A stretch of 64,000 nt of DNA. Source: Methylotenera sp. (GTDB lineage: Bacteria; Pseudomonadota; Gammaproteobacteria; Burkholderiales; Methylophilaceae). Below the pieces are notes generated by a model that made no database searches, was not told where the DNA came from, and saw only the letters and a list, made by a program, of their open reading frames with translations. A program made the translations under genes and the position numbers. The stretch lies in contig PERG01000004.1 in NCBI GenBank assembly GCA_002928535.1, positions 1 through 64,000 of the forward strand, given 5' to 3'. Positions 4,475 to 64,000 of this stretch are shown piece after piece (the stretch's first letter is position 1; the number at the start of each line of letters is the position of its first letter).

Positions 4475-4669
4475 ATGACGAATATGCAACAAGAAATAAT
4501 TTCGCCCTGCATCGGCGTGTGTGCAATTGATGATTTATCTGGCTTATGCCAAGGTTGTTTCCGCACGCTGGATGAAATCAAGGCTTGGTGGGATATGCCG
4601 TTGAATGACCAAAAAGCGTTGCTCACCACCTTGGAACAGCGGCAGTCTGACACAATTAATTTCGATTAG
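4475..4669 (+). CDS. DUF1289 domain-containing protein
   Basis: Short Cys-containing protein, ISPCIGVCAIDDLSGLCQGCFRTLDEI. Confidence 0.85.
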   Translation: MTNMQQEIISPCIGVCAIDDLSGLCQGCFRTLDEIKAWWDMPLNDQKALLTTLEQRQSDTINFD

Positions 4670-5439
4670 ATTTCAGTTTTTTGGACTAACGTGCCGAGGA
4701 TGATGCCGCGACTTTTCAAATCTTCCAGTATGCCTAATCCAAAAGTCATAAGGCTATCCAGCTGCGGGTAGCCTAATGCTTCCGCAATTTGCTTCAAGAC
4801 CTCTTTGCCCGTCATGGGCTGTAGCAGCAAGGTAATTAATTGATGGGTCATGGCATTCAGTTCGATAAATTTAACTTCATCCTCCGTGTCACGATAAACC
4901 AATAAATGCGTTTCGGCTGTCTCTGTCGGTTGATAGGCTTTTGAAATTTTGTGTACAGGGTAATCGTAATACAATATTTGCATGGCTTGCTCAAACACAA
5001 GCGGTTCCGCCAGCAAGTCGCCATCGGAATTAATATCCTCTAAGTTGATCGAGGTCTGAGCCGAGGCCACCGCCAACTCCACCCACTCATAATGGCAGAG
5101 GCTATATAAAAAAGCCGGTGTTTCCTTAGAATAACTGCATTGCTCCAGATAACCCAAGAGCTCTTTAGGAATATCGCGAAAAATAGGGCTGTTTGCAGAA
5201 TGCTGTTGCATGAAGCCGCGCACCAGTTGTTTCCAATTACTCATTCCCAGCACTTGTTGCGTTACGGGGAAACAAGCTGATACAGATTCAAATAAATTGT
5301 TAAAGACAATTTCTTCATAGACTGCAATGCGCTCGGCTGGGACTTGGGCAGGGTACGGGTTTTGTTGCGGGTCACGCAGGTGCGCGCTAAAGGCGATTTG
5401 GTAACGCTGAAATTCGGGTACTTCGTCTTGCGTCGTCAT
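4666..5439 (-). CDS. BufC-like DUF2063 domain protein (putative partner of the MNIO enzyme)
   Basis: DUF2063-like N-terminus (FQRYQIAFSAHLRDPQQNPYPAQVPAERIAVYEEIVFNNL), directly downstream of the DUF692 gene. Confidence 0.85.
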   Translation of the reverse strand: MTTQDEVPEFQRYQIAFSAHLRDPQQNPYPAQVPAERIAVYEEIVFNNLFESVSACFPVTQQVLGMSNWKQLVRGFMQQHSANSPIFRDIPKELLGYLEQCSYSKETPAFLYSLCHYEWVELAVASAQTSINLEDINSDGDLLAEPLVFEQAMQILYYDYPVHKISKAYQPTETAETHLLVYRDTEDEVKFIELNAMTHQLITLLLQPMTGKEVLKQIAEALGYPQLDSLMTFGLGILEDLKSRGIILGTLVQKTEI

Positions 5440-5441
5440 TG

Positions 5442-6332
5442 CTATCCTTTGGCTAAATAGCAGCTTTGTAAAGCAGCAATACGATCCACCTCATGCATTA
5501 ACTGCTTAAGTGGTGGAATATCATTATCACGCTCCAGCAAGGTAGGGAAAGCGCCAAATAATTGATAAGCTTCTTCCAGTAATGCCCACACCGGGTCAAT
5601 CACATCTGCACCATGGGTATCAATGAGCAAGTCTGGTGCTTGTTGATAATGACCAGCAACATGGCTGTAAACAATGCGCTCACCCGGAATGCCACGCAAA
5701 AATTCATGCGCATCAAAACCGAAATTCACGCTGTTCACATAGATATTGTTGATATCTAGATGTAGCAGGCAGTCTGCCTCGGCGAGCACTGCTTTGAGAA
5801 AAGTCAGTTCGTCCAGGGTGGAGATCGGTGCTTGAACATAGTATGAAGCATTCTCCACCGCGATGCGCTGACCGAGAATGTCCTGCGTCTGGCGGATACG
5901 TTTGGCAACGTAAATGACTGCTTCTTCGGTAAAAGGAATCGGTAATAAATCGTACAAATAGCCTTGCTGGCCCTGGTAGCCATCGGTGGAGAAACTTAAG
6001 TGCTCGGTATAAAGCGGTATCTGATATTGCTGCAGGAACTGCTTAACCTGTTGCAGGAAAGCTGTATTAAGCGGAGCGACACCCCCCAGTGATAAACATA
6101 AACCGTGACAGGCAATCGGGTAGCGTTCTGCAAACCAGTCCAATTGTTTTGCAGTTTTGCCGCCGGCGCCTATCCAGTTTTCCGGGGCGACTTCAACAAA
6201 GTCGATATTGGCAATAAAGTCTTGCTGATAGGCTGTTTGAATTTGGGGTATCAGCGCACGCTTCAACCCCAAACCTGAACCTTTGATAGCAGACTGGTCA
6301 TGACCTGGTGTCTTTGCAATGACAGTGTGCAT
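5442..6332 (-). CDS. BufB-like DUF692 / MNIO (multinuclear non-heme iron oxidative) enzyme
   Basis: DUF692 features: [72 protein letters not shown]. Confidence 0.92.
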
Positions 6333-6355
6333 ATCAAAGATGAATTAGTTAAACC

Positions 6356-6679
6356 TTATTTCTTTTCAGCGCTGCAAGTGCCTTCTTTCATTTTTTCAGC
6401 GCTGCATTTGGCTTCGCCGACTTTTTCGGCGCTACATTTCGCTTCGGCTGCTTTTTCTGCACTGCATTTAGCTTCGCCCGCTTTTTTCTCGGCACCACAT
6501 TTACCGGTGCCGCATTTGCCATCTTTCATTTTTTCTTCATGATGGTCAGCCACTTGGTAGCCGGAGGAAAGCGTTTTTAACGCAAATGGATTTTCTGCCG
6601 CATTGACTGTAGTGGCTGCCATGGATAATGCAAATGCGCCGCCTAATGCCAAAGCAATCGATTTCTGTGTCTTGTTCAT
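6356..6679 (-). CDS. BufA-like RiPP precursor: signal peptide plus Lys/Glu/Cys-rich repeats (6 Cys)
   Basis: Sec signal peptide MNKTQKSIALALGGAFALSMAATTVNA; C-terminal DGKCGTGKCGAEKK and repeated KCSAEK units; next to DUF692 and DUF2063. Confidence 0.88.
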   Translation of the reverse strand: MNKTQKSIALALGGAFALSMAATTVNAAENPFALKTLSSGYQVADHHEEKMKDGKCGTGKCGAEKKAGEAKCSAEKAAEAKCSAEKVGEAKCSAEKMKEGTCSAEKK

Positions 6680-6729
6680 GGTAAGTCCTTTTAAATGTTG
6701 AGTTAGTAGTACGTTAACATATACGGTTT

Positions 6730-6981
6730 TTAAAGATGCTTAGATGCAACCCAATCAATAATTCGCACTTTAATTTTAGTAGGCAATGTAATTGAATCGT
6801 CGTTTTCAGTGAGTTGCCTCATACGCTGCAAAGCAATGCCTATCTGTTTCAATTGCTTCCTAAAACGGCTACATGCGTCACAAATAAAAAGATGGAATCT
6901 TAATTGAATACGATTGGATAACGATAAAGGATGATCCAAAGATTGTGAAATGAGCTGACTGGCTTGTTTACATGTAAGCAT
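6730..6981 (-). CDS. putative zinc-finger anti-sigma factor
   Basis: MLTCKQASQLISQSLDHPLSLSNRIQLRFHLFICDACSRF, zf-HC2-like; probable start at MLTCKQ inside the 7023 ORF. Confidence 0.8.
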   Translation of the reverse strand: MLTCKQASQLISQSLDHPLSLSNRIQLRFHLFICDACSRFRKQLKQIGIALQRMRQLTENDDSITLPTKIKVRIIDWVASKHL

Positions 6982-6992
6982 CGTATTGTTCG

Positions 6993-7547
6993 TTACCCTG
7001 TGATCCAATTCATCTCTAGACATTTTCTAAGTCCCATCCGGGCTCGATATAGCATCACCCAGGCATTGGTCGGCGTGATATTCAGTTCCTTACAAATATT
7101 TTCATTATCAATTTCCTGAACATCGCGCATTAAAAACAGTGCGGATAATTTGGCTGGTAATTTGTCCAGGCATTTGCCTAGTACGCCTAAAAATTGCTTT
7201 TGTTCCAGGGCGTTATCAGGCATTTCCAAAATCTGTGGTTTTTCCAGCCAGTGGCCGCTCTTATCGAAAAAGTCATCCATGCTGGTGTCAGAGGCATCGA
7301 GGTCGACTAAGTCAGATACAGCTTGTTCGCGCAAGCGCTTTCGTTGAATATCGATAATTTTGTGTTTCAAGATGCCAGTCAGCCAAGTGCGGGCACTCGA
7401 ATCACCATCGAAGTTATCACTTTTAATAGCCGCCAACATGGTTTCCTGCACAGCATCTTCCGCATGATGCGGGTCACGCAGCCTTGCTAACGCAAAGCGA
7501 TACAGGTAATCCCCATGTGCATTTAGCCAGTCATTCAAGTTCTGCAT
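6993..7547 (-). CDS. ECF RNA polymerase sigma factor
   Basis: Sigma-70 region 2 (DPHHAEDAVQETMLAAI) and region 4 (LPAKLSALFLMRDVQEIDNENICKELNITPTNAWVMLYRARMGLRKCL). Confidence 0.92.
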   Translation of the reverse strand: MQNLNDWLNAHGDYLYRFALARLRDPHHAEDAVQETMLAAIKSDNFDGDSSARTWLTGILKHKIIDIQRKRLREQAVSDLVDLDASDTSMDDFFDKSGHWLEKPQILEMPDNALEQKQFLGVLGKCLDKLPAKLSALFLMRDVQEIDNENICKELNITPTNAWVMLYRARMGLRKCLEMNWITG

Positions 7548-7593
7548 AGCGGCCTATTTCTTTGTGATTTAATAAGATTCGATATATTAGAAA

Positions 7594-8052
7594 TTAATCT
7601 ACACGCGCATTTAATAATTGCAGATAACTGGCGGAATCCAGTGGCGTATTATTCCGCTGTGATTGCCATATCGCTTCAGCTAGGCATTCTACTAATTCAT
7701 GTAATGCGCGATGGCGACGTTCCTGCAAACCTTCACTTTGACCTTGTGGACGGCTGCATAATTTATGATAGATATCTCTAATGCCGATGGGCTGGTCGAT
7801 ATTGATCTGCTCAATCACCGAAAGATGCAGGCTCATGTGTAAAAAGGGATTGGTTTCGCCCATTTCCGGAAAATATTGTTGCTGCATATAACGTTCCGGT
7901 GCATCCAGTATTGCATGGTATTCAGGATGCATCTGGATCACTTCGATGGCAATCTTTTCCAGATCGGTTAATGGTAAATGTTGCTTAAATTTTGCCCAAG
8001 TATCAAAAAAGAACTGGCGCACCTGGTCACGACTGGGGTTATAAAGGCTCAT
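7594..8052 (-). CDS. DUF1841 family protein
   Basis: NPSRDQVRQFFFDTWAKFKQHLPLTDLEKIAIEVIQMHPEYHAIL and HxSLHLSVIEQI pattern. Confidence 0.8.
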   Translation of the reverse strand: MSLYNPSRDQVRQFFFDTWAKFKQHLPLTDLEKIAIEVIQMHPEYHAILDAPERYMQQQYFPEMGETNPFLHMSLHLSVIEQINIDQPIGIRDIYHKLCSRPQGQSEGLQERRHRALHELVECLAEAIWQSQRNNTPLDSASYLQLLNARVD

Positions 8053-55838: not shown

Positions 55839-56846
55839 TTAATGATAATGATCTTCAGCAGACACCTTGCCACGGAAAACATAGTAGCCCCAGGCGGTAT
55901 AAGCGATGATAAGCGGAATGATGATCAGTGCGCCCACTAATGCAAAACGTTGGCTTTCCGGCGGTGACGCCGCTGCATAAATCGAGATATCTGGGGGGAT
56001 GATATGGGGCCAGATACTAATGCCCAAGCCCAGGTAACCCAGGAATACCAAGGCTAATGCATACACAAAAGGCGTAACATGGGCTTTCTGGGCTAAGGCT
56101 TTTTGCAACAGCACAAAGAAGGCGGTCACCATTAGTGGCACAGGCGATAGCCACAACATATTCGGCAGGGTGAACCAGCGTGCGGCAATGGCCTCATTGA
56201 GTAGGGGCGTCCAAATACTTACCGCCACGATAAATACCAGTAATACAAAAGCCATAACACGCGCCAGTCGGTAGCTCACTGTTTGCAGTTCACCGGACGT
56301 TTTCATGATGAGCCAAGTGCTGCCTAATAAGGCGTAAGTCACGAGCAAGCCTAGCGCAGTAAAAACTGAAAATGGCGTAATCCAATCCAGAGGGCCGCCG
56401 GCATATACACCATCCACCACTTTGATTCCGTGAATATACGCACCCAAAATCATGCCTTGGAAAAACGTCGCGGCAAACGACCCCAGGATAAACGCCTTGT
56501 CCCAAAAATGACGTTCATGTTCTTGCGCCTTGAAACGGAATTCAAAAGCCACACCGCGCAGGATCAAGGCCAGCAGCATCAAAATAATAGGCATATAAAA
56601 CGCACTGAGGACGACACTATAGGCGAGCGGAAATGCAGCCAAAAGTCCTGCGCCGCCTAATACCAGCCAGGTTTCATTGCCATCCCAAACCGGGGCCACG
56701 GTGTTCATCATGACATCACGGTCGGATTTCTCAGAAAAGAATGGGTAGAGGATGCCAATGCCCAAATCGAAACCATCCATCATGATGTACATCATGATGC
56801 CAAACAAAATAATAATTGCCCAAATCAATGGAAGGTCAAAATGCAT
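55839..56846 (-). CDS. cioB: cytochrome bd / cyanide-insensitive ubiquinol oxidase subunit II
   Basis: MHFDLPLIWAIIILFGIMMYIMMDGFDLGIGIL; true start probably just after the cioA stop rather than 56924. Confidence 0.9.
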   Translation of the reverse strand: MHFDLPLIWAIIILFGIMMYIMMDGFDLGIGILYPFFSEKSDRDVMMNTVAPVWDGNETWLVLGGAGLLAAFPLAYSVVLSAFYMPIILMLLALILRGVAFEFRFKAQEHERHFWDKAFILGSFAATFFQGMILGAYIHGIKVVDGVYAGGPLDWITPFSVFTALGLLVTYALLGSTWLIMKTSGELQTVSYRLARVMAFVLLVFIVAVSIWTPLLNEAIAARWFTLPNMLWLSPVPLMVTAFFVLLQKALAQKAHVTPFVYALALVFLGYLGLGISIWPHIIPPDISIYAAASPPESQRFALVGALIIIPLIIAYTAWGYYVFRGKVSAEDHYH

Positions 56847-56847
56847 A

Positions 56848-58278
56848 TCAATCATCCTTCCTTTCAGATGGAGTAGGGTGTGGTGGATGGAATTCTGCCG
56901 CAATAATAAAGTCTTCCACTTCACCTTTATTCACGGAGAACGCATCGCCTTGCATGGCTTCTTTAGGTTTAGGCCCTATTTTGATCAATCGCAGCATGTA
57001 AATGGCGCCTGCGCCAAATACCGCCAAATAGATCACGACAAATAGGCCCAAGCTAATGCCCATTTCGGTTACGCTATGGGGCGTCACTGCATCAGCCGTA
57101 CGCATAAGGCCATAGATCACCCAAGGCTGGCGGCCAATTTCAGTCGTGAACCAGCCGGCCAGGATAGCGATGACGCCGGCAGGGCCCATGACCAAGGCAA
57201 AACGCAGGAACAGCTTGTTTTCGTATAACTGGTTTTTCCACCGCGCCCAAAGTGAAAACGCACCTAATACAATCATGAGCATGCCTAAGCCCACCATAAC
57301 GCGGAAGGTCCAGAACACCACGGTGGCGTTCGGCCGGTCTTCCACGGCAAACTCCTTAAGTGCAGGGATCTGTTCGGTCCAAGAGTGACGCAGGATCAGG
57401 CTGCCCAGTTTAGGGATGGCGAGCTCAAAATGATTCTTTTCCTGTTCCATATCCGGCCAGGCAAACAGGATTAAGGGCGTGGCTTCACCGGGTGGGTTTT
57501 CCCAATGGCCTTCAATCGCAGCGATTTTGGTCGGTTGGTATTCCAGGGTATTCAAGCCATGAAAGTCGCCGACCACGGCCTGGATGGGCGCCACCAGCAG
57601 GATCATCCATAGCCCCATGGACAGCATTTTGCGTATGGCGGCGTTGTTATTGCCTTTGAGCAACTGCCAGGCGGCAGATGATGCGACGAGTAATGCCGTT
57701 GTGAGGTAAGCCGCCAGCACCATATGCACCAGGCGATAGGGGAATGATGGGTTAAAGATGATCGCCAGCCAATCGACCGGAACCACTTTACCATTGATGA
57801 TTTCAATGCCTTGCGGCGTATGCATCCAGCTATTTGAAGCGAGAATCCAGGTGGTGGAAATCAACGTGCCCACTGCTACCATGATCGTAGCACCAAAGTG
57901 CAGTCCCGGCCCTACCCGGTTCCAGCCGAACAGCATCACCCCCAGAAAGCCGGCTTCCAGGAAAAACGCAGTCAACACTTCATACGCCAGTAACGGCCCG
58001 GTGACGCTGCCGGCAAACGTGGAAAAACCTGCCCAGTTGGTGCCGAACTGGTAGGCCATGACCAGGCCGGATACCACGCCCATGCCAAAACACAGCGCGA
58101 AAATCTTTACCCAGAAGTGGTAGAGGTCCAGGAAAATCGTTTGTTTGGTCATCAGCCAGCGGGCTTCCAGCACCGCTAAATAGCTGGCCAAGCCAATGGT
58201 GATTGCAGGGAAAATGATGTGGAAAGAGATGGTAAACCCGAACTGAATTCGGGCCAGGTCAAATGCGAGTTCAGGCAT
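56848..58278 (-). CDS. cioA: cytochrome bd / cyanide-insensitive ubiquinol oxidase subunit I
   Basis: LARIQFGFTISFHIIFPAITIGLASYLAVLEARW; GRQPWVIYGLMRTADAVT. Confidence 0.93.
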   Translation of the reverse strand: MPELAFDLARIQFGFTISFHIIFPAITIGLASYLAVLEARWLMTKQTIFLDLYHFWVKIFALCFGMGVVSGLVMAYQFGTNWAGFSTFAGSVTGPLLAYEVLTAFFLEAGFLGVMLFGWNRVGPGLHFGATIMVAVGTLISTTWILASNSWMHTPQGIEIINGKVVPVDWLAIIFNPSFPYRLVHMVLAAYLTTALLVASSAAWQLLKGNNNAAIRKMLSMGLWMILLVAPIQAVVGDFHGLNTLEYQPTKIAAIEGHWENPPGEATPLILFAWPDMEQEKNHFELAIPKLGSLILRHSWTEQIPALKEFAVEDRPNATVVFWTFRVMVGLGMLMIVLGAFSLWARWKNQLYENKLFLRFALVMGPAGVIAILAGWFTTEIGRQPWVIYGLMRTADAVTPHSVTEMGISLGLFVVIYLAVFGAGAIYMLRLIKIGPKPKEAMQGDAFSVNKGEVEDFIIAAEFHPPHPTPSERKDD

Positions 58279-58335
58279 TATGTGCTTTCAAATCGTATGC
58301 TTTCAATATCGGCTGGAGTCTAGCATTAAATACGC

Positions 58336-58429
58336 ATGCAACTCAAAACCGGATGCATAAAAATGAGATGCATCTCAAAATAATGTTGCATCCAATACGC
58401 TCAATATTACCGACGTTTGGATGCAACAT
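58336..58429. promoter_or_regulatory. cluster of GATGCA/TGCATC operator-like elements upstream of cioA
   Basis: ATGCAACTCAAAA and ATGCATCTCAAAA direct repeats, GAGATGCATCTC palindrome, ATGTTGCATCCAA...TTGGATGCAACAT 13-bp inverted repeat. Confidence 0.55.
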
Positions 58430-58453
58430 AAAACACAATAATGGAATCGAACT

Positions 58454-60844
58454 TTAAGCTTTTGGTGGCAATTTCTCGCGAGAGTGATCGCGCGGTTGCC
58501 CCAGCACTTTGATAAAGTCCTGGATGCCTTGCTGCCAATCATCCGTCACCAACAATGCCGGGTCCAACTTGCCATTTGGTAATTTTTCACCGATGCCCGC
58601 ATTCGCCAATAAGGTTTTAGCATTGCCTAATAACAGGATCGGTTTGCAGTGCCGGTACTGGTCACGCAGGAATTCCGCTGCATAGCCGTCAGACCTGAGT
58701 GCCTCGACGGAAGTTTCACCGTCAGCAATCACCACCGCGTCAAACAAGACCGACGGCATGGTTTCCAGCGTGGCTTCTATCGGCAAATTGTAGCCGGTGT
58801 TTCCATTGACATAGCCCAGTTTGCTGCTGAGGATTCTCGGCACGCCGCCTTCACTCAACAACGCCTCGTATAGGCCCGTAACGCCGTTGGTTTCCACGCC
58901 ATCCGCTACCAAGATCGCGATGCGTTTGGTTTTGATCGAGCCATCGCCAGGGTAATGCGTTTCCGATAAGGCCGGGCTGTTGGCCAGCACCGGGAATTTA
59001 GTATCGCTGGCCAGCGGTGCCGCGGGTGGTAAAGCGATCCCCAGGCCATCGGCTACCTTGATCGCCAAGTCTTTATCGACATTGACCAGCAATGACACCA
59101 CGCGCTCGCGGATGGCCGGTGTTTGCACACGGGTCAGCTCAAAGCGGAAAGCATTGGCAATATGCGCCTGTTCGATCGGTGTCAGGCTGCGGTAAAATAA
59201 AGTCGCTTGTGAATAATGGTCGGCGAATTTCTCCGGTTTGCCGCGCACCTTGTCTTCGGCAATCGGTTCCGGAAAGCTGCTGAAGCCGTTGACCCCGGCC
59301 TGGAACGGGCAGCCACCGCCCAGTGAATTCGGCTCATACGCCACTCGGCCGCGCGGGATGGACTGGCGGTGCATGCCGTCGCGTTGGTTGTTATGCACTT
59401 CTTTGAGCGGCGCATTGATCGGCAGCTCATGAAAGTTAACGCCGCCCAGGCGCGAAATTTGCGTATCTACATAAGAATGGATGCGACCTTGCAGCAAGGG
59501 GTCGTTACTGAAATCAATGCCGGGAATGATGTGCGCGGTACAGAACGCCACTTGTTCGGTCTCGGCGAAAAAGTTGTCCGGGTTGCGGTTCAGCACCATT
59601 TTGCCGACAGGCGTTAGCGGTACGAGCTCCACCGGGATCAGCTTGGTCGCGTCCAGGATATCGAAGTCGAAGCTGTCGGCTTGTGCTTCGGTGAAGATTT
59701 GCAGGCTGAGCTCCCACTCCGGGTAAGCCCCAGCTTCAATCGCTTCCCACAAGTCGCGGCGGTGGAAATCCGCATCCGCACCATTGATTTTTACCGCTTC
59801 ATCCCAAGCCAGTGAGTGCGTGCCGGCCACTGGCGTCCAGTGGAATTTGCAGAATACCGATTCGTTCTTGTCGTTAATCAGGCGGAAGGTATGCACGCCA
59901 AAGCCTTGCATCATGCGGTAGCTGCGCGGAATGGTGCGGTCGGACATCTGCCACATGAGCATATGGGTCGATTCCGGCATCAGCGAGGCAAAATCCCAGA
60001 ACGTATCGTGGGCGGATGACGCTTGCGGAATGCCGTGATGCGGCTCCGGCTTCACTGCATGCACCAGGTCGGGGAATTTCATGGCGTCCTGGATAAAGAA
60101 CACCGGAATATTGTTGCCGACCAGGTCCCAGTTACCGGCGTCGGTATAAAACTTCACGGCAAAGCCGCGCACATCGCGCACGGTATCGGCTGAGCCCCGT
60201 TCACCCGCCACGGTGGAAAAGCGCACAAATAGCGGCGTGCGTTTGCCGGCTTCACTAAACGGTGCAGCTTTGGTGATATTCGGGATCGCTTTGTAATTCT
60301 CAAAATACCCATGCGCAGCTGAGCCTCTTGCGTGTACGACGCGTTCCGGAATGCGCTCATGGTCGAAGTGGGTGATTTTTTCGCGCAGGATAAAATCTTC
60401 CAACGCCGTGGGGCCGCGTAGGCCGATTTTCAGCGAGCTTTGATTATCCGCTACGGATACGCCTTGATTGGTCGTAAGTGCTTGTTGCGCGGAATCCACA
60501 CGAACCCGGTCCAGGTTCCCTCCAGCATAGTTTTCACCCTTCGGCGGCACACCCGATCCCACTTTGTCGGATGGGTTGGCTTCTGTGGCTGTACTTGCGG
60601 TTGCAATTGGTGATGGAGGTAAGTGCGACATACCAGCAAAGGGGCACCGCGCTGCCTCTCCATATTCATTTGGTTTAGTTTGGTTAGCCACAGTTTCATT
60701 CGCAAGCTCGGCCCCGCCGAAAAACTTTTCAGCTAACTCCGTGGTTAAAGGACGATTTTTTAAATCTGGTCTGACTGGGGCAGAAGGCCCTGAAACTGTA
60801 CTCATCACCGACCCGAGGCCTATGCCGTTTTTATCCTTTGCCAT
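58454..60844 (-). CDS. katE: large-subunit catalase HPII
   Basis: [51 protein letters not shown]-terminal DJ-1-like domain. Confidence 0.97.
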
Positions 60845-60923
60845 GTTGCTTCTCCTTTGGAAATAACTATATGGAAAAAGGGGTTAACGTTGAAGTTAAC
60901 CCTTTTTCGCGATGTAAAAATGA

Positions 60924-62087
60924 TTAAGGGGTGAGCACAACCTTTCGGCAGTCCTGCTCTTTTTTGTTGAATATGTCATAGCCTTCAGCAGCATCTTCCA
61001 GCTTCATGCGGTGCGTAATAATGTCGGCCGGGCGTAGGTCACCGTTCTCGATATGTTCTAGGAGCTCCGGCAAATATTTATGTACGTGGGTCTGGCCCAT
61101 CTTGAACGTTAAGCCCTTATCGAACGCATCGCCGATTAGGAAGCCATGAATAAAACCTGCGTAAACACCCGGGATGCTGACAATACCGCCACGGCGTGTA
61201 GCAGCGATACAGTGCCTAATGGCTTCACCGCTACTGGCTTCCAGCTTGAGGGTAGTTAATACCGTTTCGATCGCGCTGCCTTTTGCTTCAAACCCGACGG
61301 CGTCGATGCTGGCATCTACGCCGCGGCCTTGTGTGCGGTCGATGATGAGCTGGGAAGGATCTTCATCATCGTCGAAATTGATGCTATGGGTGTGATAGTG
61401 TGCCTGCGCAAAATCGAGTCGGTATTGGTGATGATCTACCATATAAATGTCGGCGGCGCCCATCATGCGTGCACAGGCAGCTGCCATCAGGCCCACAGGA
61501 CCAGCACCGAAAATCGCCACACTGGAACCCGGCTGGATCTCCGCATTCAGGCAAGCCTGGTAACCGGTCGGTAGAATGTCCGTGAGGAAAAGTACTTGCT
61601 CGTCTGCCAGACTGCCATTCACTTTGAATGGACCGACATTACCTTTGGGAACGCGCACCAGCTCCGCCTGACCGCCTGGTACGCCGCCATATAAATGGCT
61701 AAATCCGAATAACGCTGCCGGTGGGCTTGACCCTTTTTTATTGAGGATGGCCCCGCGCCCAGTATTGGTTGTTTCACAGGCTGAGAATTGCGTTTTGGCA
61801 CAGAAAAAACAGTGACCGCATGCGATCACAAATGGAATGATGACGCGGTCACCGGTTTTCACATTGGTGACAGCTGAACCGGTATCTTCGACAATACCCA
61901 TGAATTCATGACCTAGGATATCCCCGTCACGGAGTTCAGGAATCTTGCCGCGGAAAAGATGCAGGTCCGAGCCGCAAATCGCCGTTGCAGTCACACGGAG
62001 AATGACGTCGTCATCCTCCAAAAGGACAGGATCCGGTACGGTTTCTACCCGTACATCTTTACTGCCATGGTAAGTAAGTGCTCGCAT
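60924..62087 (-). CDS. zinc-dependent alcohol dehydrogenase (formaldehyde dehydrogenase-like)
   Basis: [12 protein letters not shown], structural Cys cluster [15 protein letters not shown], Rossmann [10 protein letters not shown]. Confidence 0.93.
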
Positions 62088-62239
62088 AAAAATCTCCCAA
62101 GATACCTGATTTGGTATTAGCGTAAGGTGCTGGCGAAAGTGCTCTTAGCATTCTAGGAATACCAGCTGGCCTTAGATGTAGGGAGAGTCCTGATTAGGCT
62201 GTAGGATTAAATCTATGAGCCGGTTACAGATAAAAAAAT

Positions 62240-62896
62240 TTAAATGAGCGGCCAGACGCAGCCACCATCGGTGACGAATAAGCGAGAATTGGCCTGTTTT
62301 TCCATGGCATAACCGCCGGTAAAGTCGCCAAAAGCCGGCAGGATAGTGAGTGCTGGCTCATGATAGAAGCAGGGCAGTACAAGCTTTTGCCGGCCCTTGC
62401 CTTGCAGGCGGAAAGTAGGATGCACATGGCCGGCAATTACATGGTGTGTGGCATGGATGGCAGGGATGTGCTGCAGGGCGATCTTGTTGATGAGGTAGGG
62501 CTCAGCTACCACATCGAATTCCAAATCCGCAGGCGGGTCCCCGGCTTTCAGGTCATGGTTGCCACGCACCAACATGCACTGCACATTGCCATGCAGGCGC
62601 CGCCAGCTGCGCAAAGCCGCCAAAGTAGCTGGGGCATGGGATTTAGGCGCATGCAGAAAGTCGCCCAGAAAGATCAATTTTTCTGGGTTATAACGGCTTA
62701 ATAATAAATTCAGGCGCTGCAGATTATGGCTGGTTGTACCTTGCGGCACCGGTTGGCCTAGTGCGCGGTAAGCGGCGGCTTTACCGAAATGCGCATCCGC
62801 GATCAGCAACGCTTTCTGGTCAGGCCAATAAATGGCCTTGTCGGCCAGCAATATTAATTGCTCACTAGCGATGGTTAGCGGGTGTTCTAATTTCAT
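62240..62896 (-). CDS. ligase-associated DNA damage response endonuclease PdeM-like phosphoesterase
   Basis: LLIADAHFGKAAAYRALGQPVPQGTT, FLGDFLHA, VRGNHD, GHVHPTF. Confidence 0.9.
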   Translation of the reverse strand: MKLEHPLTIASEQLILLADKAIYWPDQKALLIADAHFGKAAAYRALGQPVPQGTTSHNLQRLNLLLSRYNPEKLIFLGDFLHAPKSHAPATLAALRSWRRLHGNVQCMLVRGNHDLKAGDPPADLEFDVVAEPYLINKIALQHIPAIHATHHVIAGHVHPTFRLQGKGRQKLVLPCFYHEPALTILPAFGDFTGGYAMEKQANSRLFVTDGGCVWPLI

Positions 62897-62922
62897 GGTG
62901 ACGAATGCTTGATATTAGGATG

Positions 62923-64000
62923 TCAGAACCCGTGGCGGGGTCTGGGTGGAATGATCTTGGTACGCGGTAAGCCAGTCTTGCGCACCCGCTCGCGCTTTTT
63001 ATACACGGGTTCAGGCTTATTGAATTGCGCCTGGTCATAGATGGTATCTTCGGGTTGGTAGGCACCGTCACCGGCTGCTTTTTCCAGCTCGGCCACCATG
63101 CGCGTAATGCGGTCGGACAATTTTTCCGAGCTGTTACTTTCACGAAAGCGTTCAACCAGTAAAGGAAACGCAAACGGTGTTGGCCGCTTCACGTGCATGA
63201 GCTGCAGGGTTTTGGACTGCAGCTTGATCAAGGTTTCAGACAAACGGGCAATCTCGAGCTCCTGGCGCAGCACTTCTTCCTGAGCCTGGGTTAATAATAG
63301 ATTGCCGGGATCGTATTTGCGGAACACATCATAAAACAGGCTGGAAGATGCCTGGACCTGCTTAGTGCTTTTCGGGGCGCCAGGAAATCCGGCGAAGATC
63401 AGGCCTGAAATGCGCGCGATTTCGCGGAATCTCCGCTGCGCAAGTTCCCCGGCATTGAGGCTGCCGATCACGTCTTCAAGTAAGTTTCCCGTACTGAAAA
63501 TCGCTTGTTTAAGACTGGCTTCCCAGTCTGTTTGTGTGGCCGACAACAGTTCCAGGCCGTAATCATTCACGGCGATGGAAAAGGTATTCGGTTGATGTTT
63601 GCCGATGCGCCAAGCCAGCAAACTTGCAAGGCCCAAGTGCACGCTGCGGCCTGCATAGGGATACAGAAACAAATGCCAGCCTTCGCGGGAATGCAGCGAT
63701 TCGGCTAATAAAGTCGTATTCGTCGGTAAAGCCGACCAGTCGCTTTGCACCTGTAATAGCGGTTTGACGAGCTGCATTTCCGGCCCATCGAAATGCCCAT
63801 GCGCGGCGGCATCCATGCGCGTGACGATGGCATTGGAAAGCTCGGTGGATAGCGGCATGCGGCCGCCATTCCAGCGTGGAACTGCGGCTTTCTTACCCGT
63901 GGCTTTGCTTACATAAGCCGTCATTTCATGCACGCGGACCAGTTCCAGCAAGCGCCCGCCGAACAGGAAATGATCACCTGGCTTTAGCCTGGCGATAAAG
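62923..64000 (-). CDS. ligase-associated DEXH-box (Lhr-like) helicase, C-terminal part; N-terminus beyond window
   Basis: [29 protein letters not shown]-type Lhr C-terminal region, adjacent to PdeM; frame appears to continue past 64000. Confidence 0.85.

Follow-up and report, generated by a model that had tools for sequence, protein, structure and literature searches.

The window, a stretch of 64,000 nucleotides from Methylotenera sp., contains five contiguous genes on the minus strand at positions 4666–7547. In order of transcription, these encode an ECF sigma factor of 184 residues (6993–7547), a zinc-binding ZAS (zf-HC2) anti-sigma factor of 97 residues (6730–7023), a RiPP precursor of 107 residues with an N-terminal Sec-type signal (6356–6679), an MNIO maturase of the DUF692, HvfB family with 296 residues (5442–6332), and a DUF2063, RRE-containing partner (HvfC, PME1) of 257 residues (4666–5439). 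The sigma and anti-sigma genes overlap by 31 bp, and the following gaps measure 50 bp to the precursor, 23 bp to the MNIO and 2 bp to the DUF2063 gene; the set of five same-strand genes with small gaps described in an earlier note on this DNA was thus found complete. Upstream on the same strand lie genes for a DUF1841 protein, a FIST protein and an endonuclease III-like protein, the last assigned by reading; downstream, on the opposite strand, are a DUF1289 gene and, also by reading, secA. The host is a Methylophilaceae bacterium whose close relatives are Methylotenera MAGs. In its genome, at 88% completeness, a single PF05114 MNIO gene was found, namely the one at this locus. The locus has no DoxX gene, and three were found elsewhere. 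Plasmid carriage was considered and rejected, as no match was obtained.

The sigma factor matches Sigma70_r2 (5e-15) and Sigma70_r4_2 (2.5e-10) and belongs to the TIGR02943 family (196 bits against a cut-off of 162), and the anti-sigma factor scores above the cut-offs for zf-HC2 (31.2 against 22.2 bits) and antisigmaE (72 against 50 bits). Pfam and NCBIfam models identify MbnB_TglH_ChrH in the MNIO, and DUF2063 and NGO1945_C in the partner. The MNIO matches PF05114 with 336 bits and the structure 3bww with E=1e-71; it exceeds the HvfB cut-off (NF003818; 393.8 against 360 bits) and falls below that of the BufB equivalog (269.6 against 310 bits). Its conserved His, Glu, Asp and Asn residues, including the catalytic Asp269, are all present and are invariant across 198 homologues. 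The adjoining partner lies above the HvfC cut-off (NF050145; 259.4 against 142 bits) and matches PDB entry 3dee with E=1.6e-14. The precursor, which has Methylophilaceae orthologues in the same place, passes the KCGExKCG_twice cut-off (23.3 against 19.5 bits) and stays below the HvfA equivalog model (25.7 against 95 bits).

The earlier note had labelled the genes BufA-BufB-BufC and had suggested a profile search of the precursor against bufferin families. Pfam revealed no DUF2282 in the precursor, which instead contains the KCG-repeat domain. No Buf_6/12Cys precursor model was matched under such a name in Pfam or NCBIfam, the Buf2 authors' own model being outside these libraries. A true bufferin of the Buf1 or Buf2 type would share the general set of precursor, MNIO, DUF2063 protein and sigma/anti-sigma pair, and its MNIO would be closely related to the present one (PMC12452194); however, the missing DUF2282, the missed BufB cut-off and an anti-sigma factor of the zf-HC2 rather than the NrsF type make this reading extremely improbable, and we rejected a bufferin proper on the family models. 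Since the HvfB and HvfC cut-offs are exceeded, the BufB cut-off is not reached, DUF2282 is missing and the KCG-repeat domain is matched, the locus is, as judged from its sequence, a captophorin operon of the oxazolin/fontiphorin (EGKCG, Lys-Cys) type and not a strict bufferin operon. It possesses what defines the Lys-Cys group, i.e. an HvfB/FonB-type MNIO, a PME1 partner and a precursor of five-residue Lys-Cys repeats; the Phe at the position of FonB residue 250 and the Gly following Cys, which characterise the group's logos without belonging to its definition, are replaced here by Asn270 and, in four of six units, by Ser. What is supported is the broader reading of a RiPP operon with an MNIO and its partner that serves metal buffering and is controlled by an ECF factor.

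Lys-Cys captophorins comprise fontiphorin, oxazolin and gonophorin (PMC13097082, PMC12452194). In these, the Cys of each unit loses 4 Da to become a 5-thiooxazole, and the product binds copper (PMC13097082, PMC13419390); the 'oxazolone/thioamide' wording in NCBIfam is older than this reassignment (PMC13097082, PMC13419390). The FonABC system of Fontimonas thermophila (PMC13097082) shares with the present locus the HvfB-type MNIO, the DUF2063 partner and precursor units of the form E-x-K-C-x, but has Phe250 and units ending in Gly, whereas here we find Asn270, four of six units ending in Ser, and an adjacent sigma/anti-sigma pair. HvfABC of Haemophilus influenzae (PMC13419390) likewise has six repeat cysteines and the same enzyme and partner families, and its cluster is tied to that genome's stress sigma factor (PMC7907618), resembling the ECF link in the window. 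HvfA, however, contains three AEGKCGEGKCG motifs and its operon includes DoxX, whereas the present precursor has a single pair and four lone units and the locus lacks DoxX. The Neisseria sigma-E operon NMB2140-2145, or gonophorin NgoABC (PMC2893595, PMC13097082), has a precursor, MNIO, DUF2063 protein, ECF sigma factor and ZAS anti-sigma factor in common with the window; its sigma and anti-sigma genes come last, DoxX is present and the units are EGKCG, whereas here the sigma/anti-sigma pair comes first. With the bufferins Buf1 and Buf2 (PMC12452194), the common ground is an MNIO with a DUF2063 partner, an exported Cys-rich precursor and metal buffering; the DUF2282 precursor and NrsF anti-sigma factor of Buf1 have no counterpart here. 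The general kind of operon is already known, and what is altered are the substrate units and an enzyme residue.

An ECF sigma factor and a ZAS anti-sigma factor encoded together with target genes are found at this locus. In the anti-sigma factor, the segment HLFICDAC contains the H-x3-C-x2-C pattern; this HxxxCxxC motif is retained by 85 of 87 loci from the Methylophilaceae, a label used throughout for loci whose MNIO has a score of more than 370 bits against the window enzyme, so that a few may be wrongly in or out. The sigma/anti-sigma pair adjoins the operon in 85–87 of 102 Methylophilaceae loci as compared to 10–12 of 96 others, with roughly 3.8 kb mostly covered. The association as such is not new, since it is known from Neisseria and H. 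influenzae. A single sigma-E operon of Neisseria meningitidis comprises DoxX, precursor, MNIO, DUF2063, rpoE and mseR (PMC2893595); within it, NMB2141-2143 correspond to precursor, MNIO and DUF2063 protein by way of the gonophorin and 3DEE work (PMC13097082). Methionine sulfoxide reductase belongs to the ECF regulon of Neisseria (PMC2893595), and H. influenzae RpoE2, linked to the homologous cluster, is induced by HOCl and H2O2 (PMC7907618). By analogy, the operon may respond to an oxidative signal no less than to a metallic one. Across relatives, no conserved motif or promoter was found before the precursor or sigma gene, the upstream sequence revealed no metal-responsive promoter, and the sigma consensus of Neisseria gave no match above background. 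Around the stretch that corresponds to 7548–7594 of the window, the sigma gene of several relatives apparently runs up to or into the DUF1841 gene that precedes it. The operon promoter may therefore lie further upstream, and the sigma gene may be co-transcribed with the endonuclease III-like, FIST and DUF1841 genes.

The precursor begins with a putative Sec signal peptide, read by eye as residues 1–27 (6599–6679, minus strand) with cleavage at ...TTVNA/AENPF, and the following NPF...GYQVAD segment is conserved in relatives. It contains exactly six cysteines, as had been noted earlier, in units that read, in the register used in the literature, DGKCG, TGKCG, EAKCS, EAKCS, EAKCS and EGTCS. Lys precedes Cys in five of the six, and Ser follows it in four. 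The canonical pair DGKCG-TGKCG (Cys56 and Cys61; 6494–6523) has its cysteines five residues apart, a spacing also seen in relatives, and the remaining four units (Cys72, 82, 92 and 102; 6362–6475) are spaced ten residues from one another. Four KCS(A)EK repeats had been proposed for this part; three are indeed EAKCSAEK, but the last is EGTCSAEK. Any two copies of EAKCSAEK differ at 3–4 of 24 nucleotides, always synonymously, so the peptide sequence of the unit, including its Ser, was kept while the DNA drifted. A fresh tandem duplication as the cause of the near-identical units was rejected on the same grounds; given the synonymous-only differences and a layout that is kept in the Methylophilaceae orthologues, the repeats are not due to chance either.

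Among relatives, the two parts of the precursor behave differently. Of 95 Methylophilaceae precursors, 90 have their first two cysteines exactly five residues apart; Lys stands before these cysteines in 95% and Gly after them in 75% of cases. Later cysteines, often at a spacing of ten residues, have Ser (51%), Gly (34%) or His (11%) after them and Ser (40%) or Lys (37%) before them. The acidic residue at −3, Glu or Asp, is nevertheless kept in these later units, in 95% of those with Cys-Ser and 100% of those with Cys-His. A mere slip of Gly GGY to Ser AGY codons accounts for the Ser only in part: at loci with a non-Phe enzyme (see below), 189 of 246 Ser codons after Cys are AGY and 57 are TCN, which means that many were kept or remade as Ser. 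The KCG-repeat model (E≤0.01) matches 24 of 37 sampled precursors at such loci as opposed to 30 of 30 in the Phe group, so models built on KCG cover these peptides only partly. The choice of precursors relied on a motif and hence favours peptides of the repeat type; a few of those chosen (e.g. L062) show another Cys pattern.

The residue next to the catalytic Asp of the MNIO changes alongside these units. The pair is Asp269-Asn270 in the window enzyme (Asn270 codon at 5523–5525, minus strand; aligned to ERDFNFPP of 3bww and to 198 homologues) and Asp249-Phe250 in FonB. In a model of FonB, Phe250 contacts Lys3 and Gly5 of the substrate, on both sides of the Cys (PMC13097082), and according to Gadgil and colleagues, Lys-Cys enzymes have a conserved Phe at this position and Cys-Lys enzymes a conserved Asp (PMC13097082). 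The F250A and F250D variants of FonB still yield product (PMC13097082), which indicates that the residue tunes rather than gates the reaction. We collected 198 distinct MNIO loci, and a precursor was found in 180 of these. The catalytic Asp is kept wherever the region is covered, and the next residue is Phe in 83 loci, Ser in 38, Asn in 28, Thr in 25, Ile in 9, Leu in 8, and another in a few. With Phe enzymes, 501 of 518 precursor cysteines (97%) are followed by Gly; with non-Phe enzymes taken together, this holds for 293 of 606 (48%), the rest being followed mostly by Ser or His. By individual enzyme residue, the Cys-Gly share amounts to 63% for Ser, 34% for Thr, 39% for Asn, 43% for Ile and 42% for Leu.

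With the substrate class set by a threshold of at least 30% non-Gly cysteines, an unbiased scan puts position 270 first among 240 alignment columns as a predictor (corrected MI, i.e. mutual information, 0.455; next 0.316). Inside the Methylophilaceae, where Phe at this position is almost absent, it ranks second of 212 columns, behind a poorly aligned N-terminal position. Here, non-Gly units occur in 48 of 48 representatives with Asn, Thr, Ile, Leu or Met enzymes and in 10 of 27 with Ser, Ala, Val or Phe enzymes (17 being without), a split drawn after seeing the data. A Methylobacillus locus (L088) with a Phe enzyme inside a non-Phe clade has units that all end in Gly. Outside the two methylotroph clades, at least 20% non-Gly cysteines are found in 4 of 4 non-Phe and 3 of 67 Phe loci (p=4e-5, relatedness ignored). 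Three precursors from Methylomonas and Methylovulum (L091, L093 and L096) carry EGGCSG or EGGCSA beside EGKCG units, and the corresponding MNIOs have Ser instead of Phe; on their sequences, these methanotrophs form another methylotroph clade in which the trend recurs. The difference between the KCS units and the GKCG pair, pointed out for this one locus in the earlier note, thus extends across the family and is accompanied by a change of the specificity residue in the MNIO. This family-wide shift in the substrate units and the enzyme residue facing them is real and apparently undescribed.

The association between enzyme and substrate lies largely between clades and is suggestive, not proven. 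On a tree of 153 representative enzymes, with the trait column excluded, the non-Phe state requires at least six changes, three of them forced by well-supported branches. A tree-aware sign test was powerless with its 3–4 supported independent contrasts, and the Fisher values for residue against substrate ignore relatedness. Within the family, columns 102, 166 and 85 likewise follow the substrate, in matched pairs as closely as 270 or more so. There are counterexamples in both directions: L100 combines a Phe enzyme with four of six cysteines followed by residues other than Gly, and L092 and L094 have non-Phe enzymes and all-Gly units. The Methylococcales case suggests that the substrate can drift first.

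A captophorin operon with an altered enzyme pocket and a drifted substrate offers, in our moderately confident opinion, the best explanation overall. The precursor would be made with its Sec signal and presented to the MNIO by the DUF2063 partner; the MNIO would oxidise the cysteines of the five-residue E-x-K-C-x units to 5-thiooxazoles before export, and the periplasmic product would bind and sequester surplus soft metal, mainly copper. Together with its zinc anti-sigma factor, the ECF sigma factor would activate the operon in response to envelope, oxidative or metal stress. Thiooxazole chemistry, copper binding and induction are probable here by analogy with the characterised relatives. In the Methylophilaceae, the pocket that reads the flanks of the Cys would have changed, with Phe replaced by Asn at position 270 in the window enzyme, allowing the substrate units to diverge from KCG towards KCS and even SCS or SCH. 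On balance, we infer that all six cysteines, including those of the KCS units, are still modified. More tentatively, and perhaps just short of an even case, the Methylophilaceae enzymes might represent a distinct specificity class, with a small or polar residue for Phe, 5-thiooxazoles formed on Cys-Ser and Cys-His, two classes of metal-binding unit (a canonical pair and drifted singles), and co-evolution at one residue.

The main competing explanation is a mixed peptide, in which only DGKCG-TGKCG would be converted to thiooxazoles and the four cysteines of the KCS and TCS units would remain free thiols, serving as additional soft-metal ligands. The conservation of the first pair (Lys-Cys, Cys-Gly and the spacing of five) against the drift of the later cysteines agrees with this, as does the behaviour of FonBC, which processed only double variants with Gly or Ala after Cys (PMC13097082) and requires at least two repeats (PMC13097082), a minimum that the pair would satisfy. 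Position-5 changes other than Ala blocked FonBC as far as the described panel extends, which may not include Ser (PMC13097082). Free thiols, however, would not need a change in the enzyme residue facing the flanks, which does change alongside the later units, and the E/D-G/A-x-C register is kept in those units; we therefore regard the mixed peptide as unlikely, though worth serious consideration. That the repeats are instead drifting out of function, with a neutral change in the enzyme, might be read from relatives in which a unit has lost its Cys (EGNSEK in L115, EGASD in L088). Yet all differences among the three EAKCSAEK copies in the window are synonymous, 490 of 563 E/D-G/A-x units with non-Phe enzymes retain their Cys, no worse than 490 of 586 with Phe enzymes, and the enzyme, partner and operon order are all preserved, which renders degeneration very improbable.

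The operon, with its changed enzyme residue and altered repeats, bears on the question of how an MNIO chooses which Cys to oxidise, in a field that counts over 24,000 loci (PMC13097082). The Methylophilaceae provide dozens of natural enzyme/substrate pairs in which one residue, suspected to belong to the pocket, varies; wild-type pairs and single swaps thus allow the role ascribed to FonB Phe250 to be put to the test.

Several other precursors in the sample depart from the common layout. Those at L063, L065, L074 and L183 have EF-hand-like segments between or after EGKCG units, and 7 of 30 scanned Phe-group precursors also match lanmodulin or calcium-binding models. These fit the EF-hand chimaeras described earlier (PMC12452194), except that here the EF-hands are sometimes flanked on both sides by Cys units. 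The HvfB-like MNIO loci L062 and L178 have precursors with K-C-G-N-I-C or K-C-G-T-F-C in place of EGKCG, possibly another substrate class. Elsewhere in the window, the region 55839–63951 on the minus strand has a GC content of 0.51–0.54, compared to 0.41–0.48 in the rest, and encodes cytochrome bd subunits I and II, a long catalase, a zinc alcohol dehydrogenase, a phosphoesterase and a DEAD-associated protein; it looks like an acquired oxygen-stress cluster.
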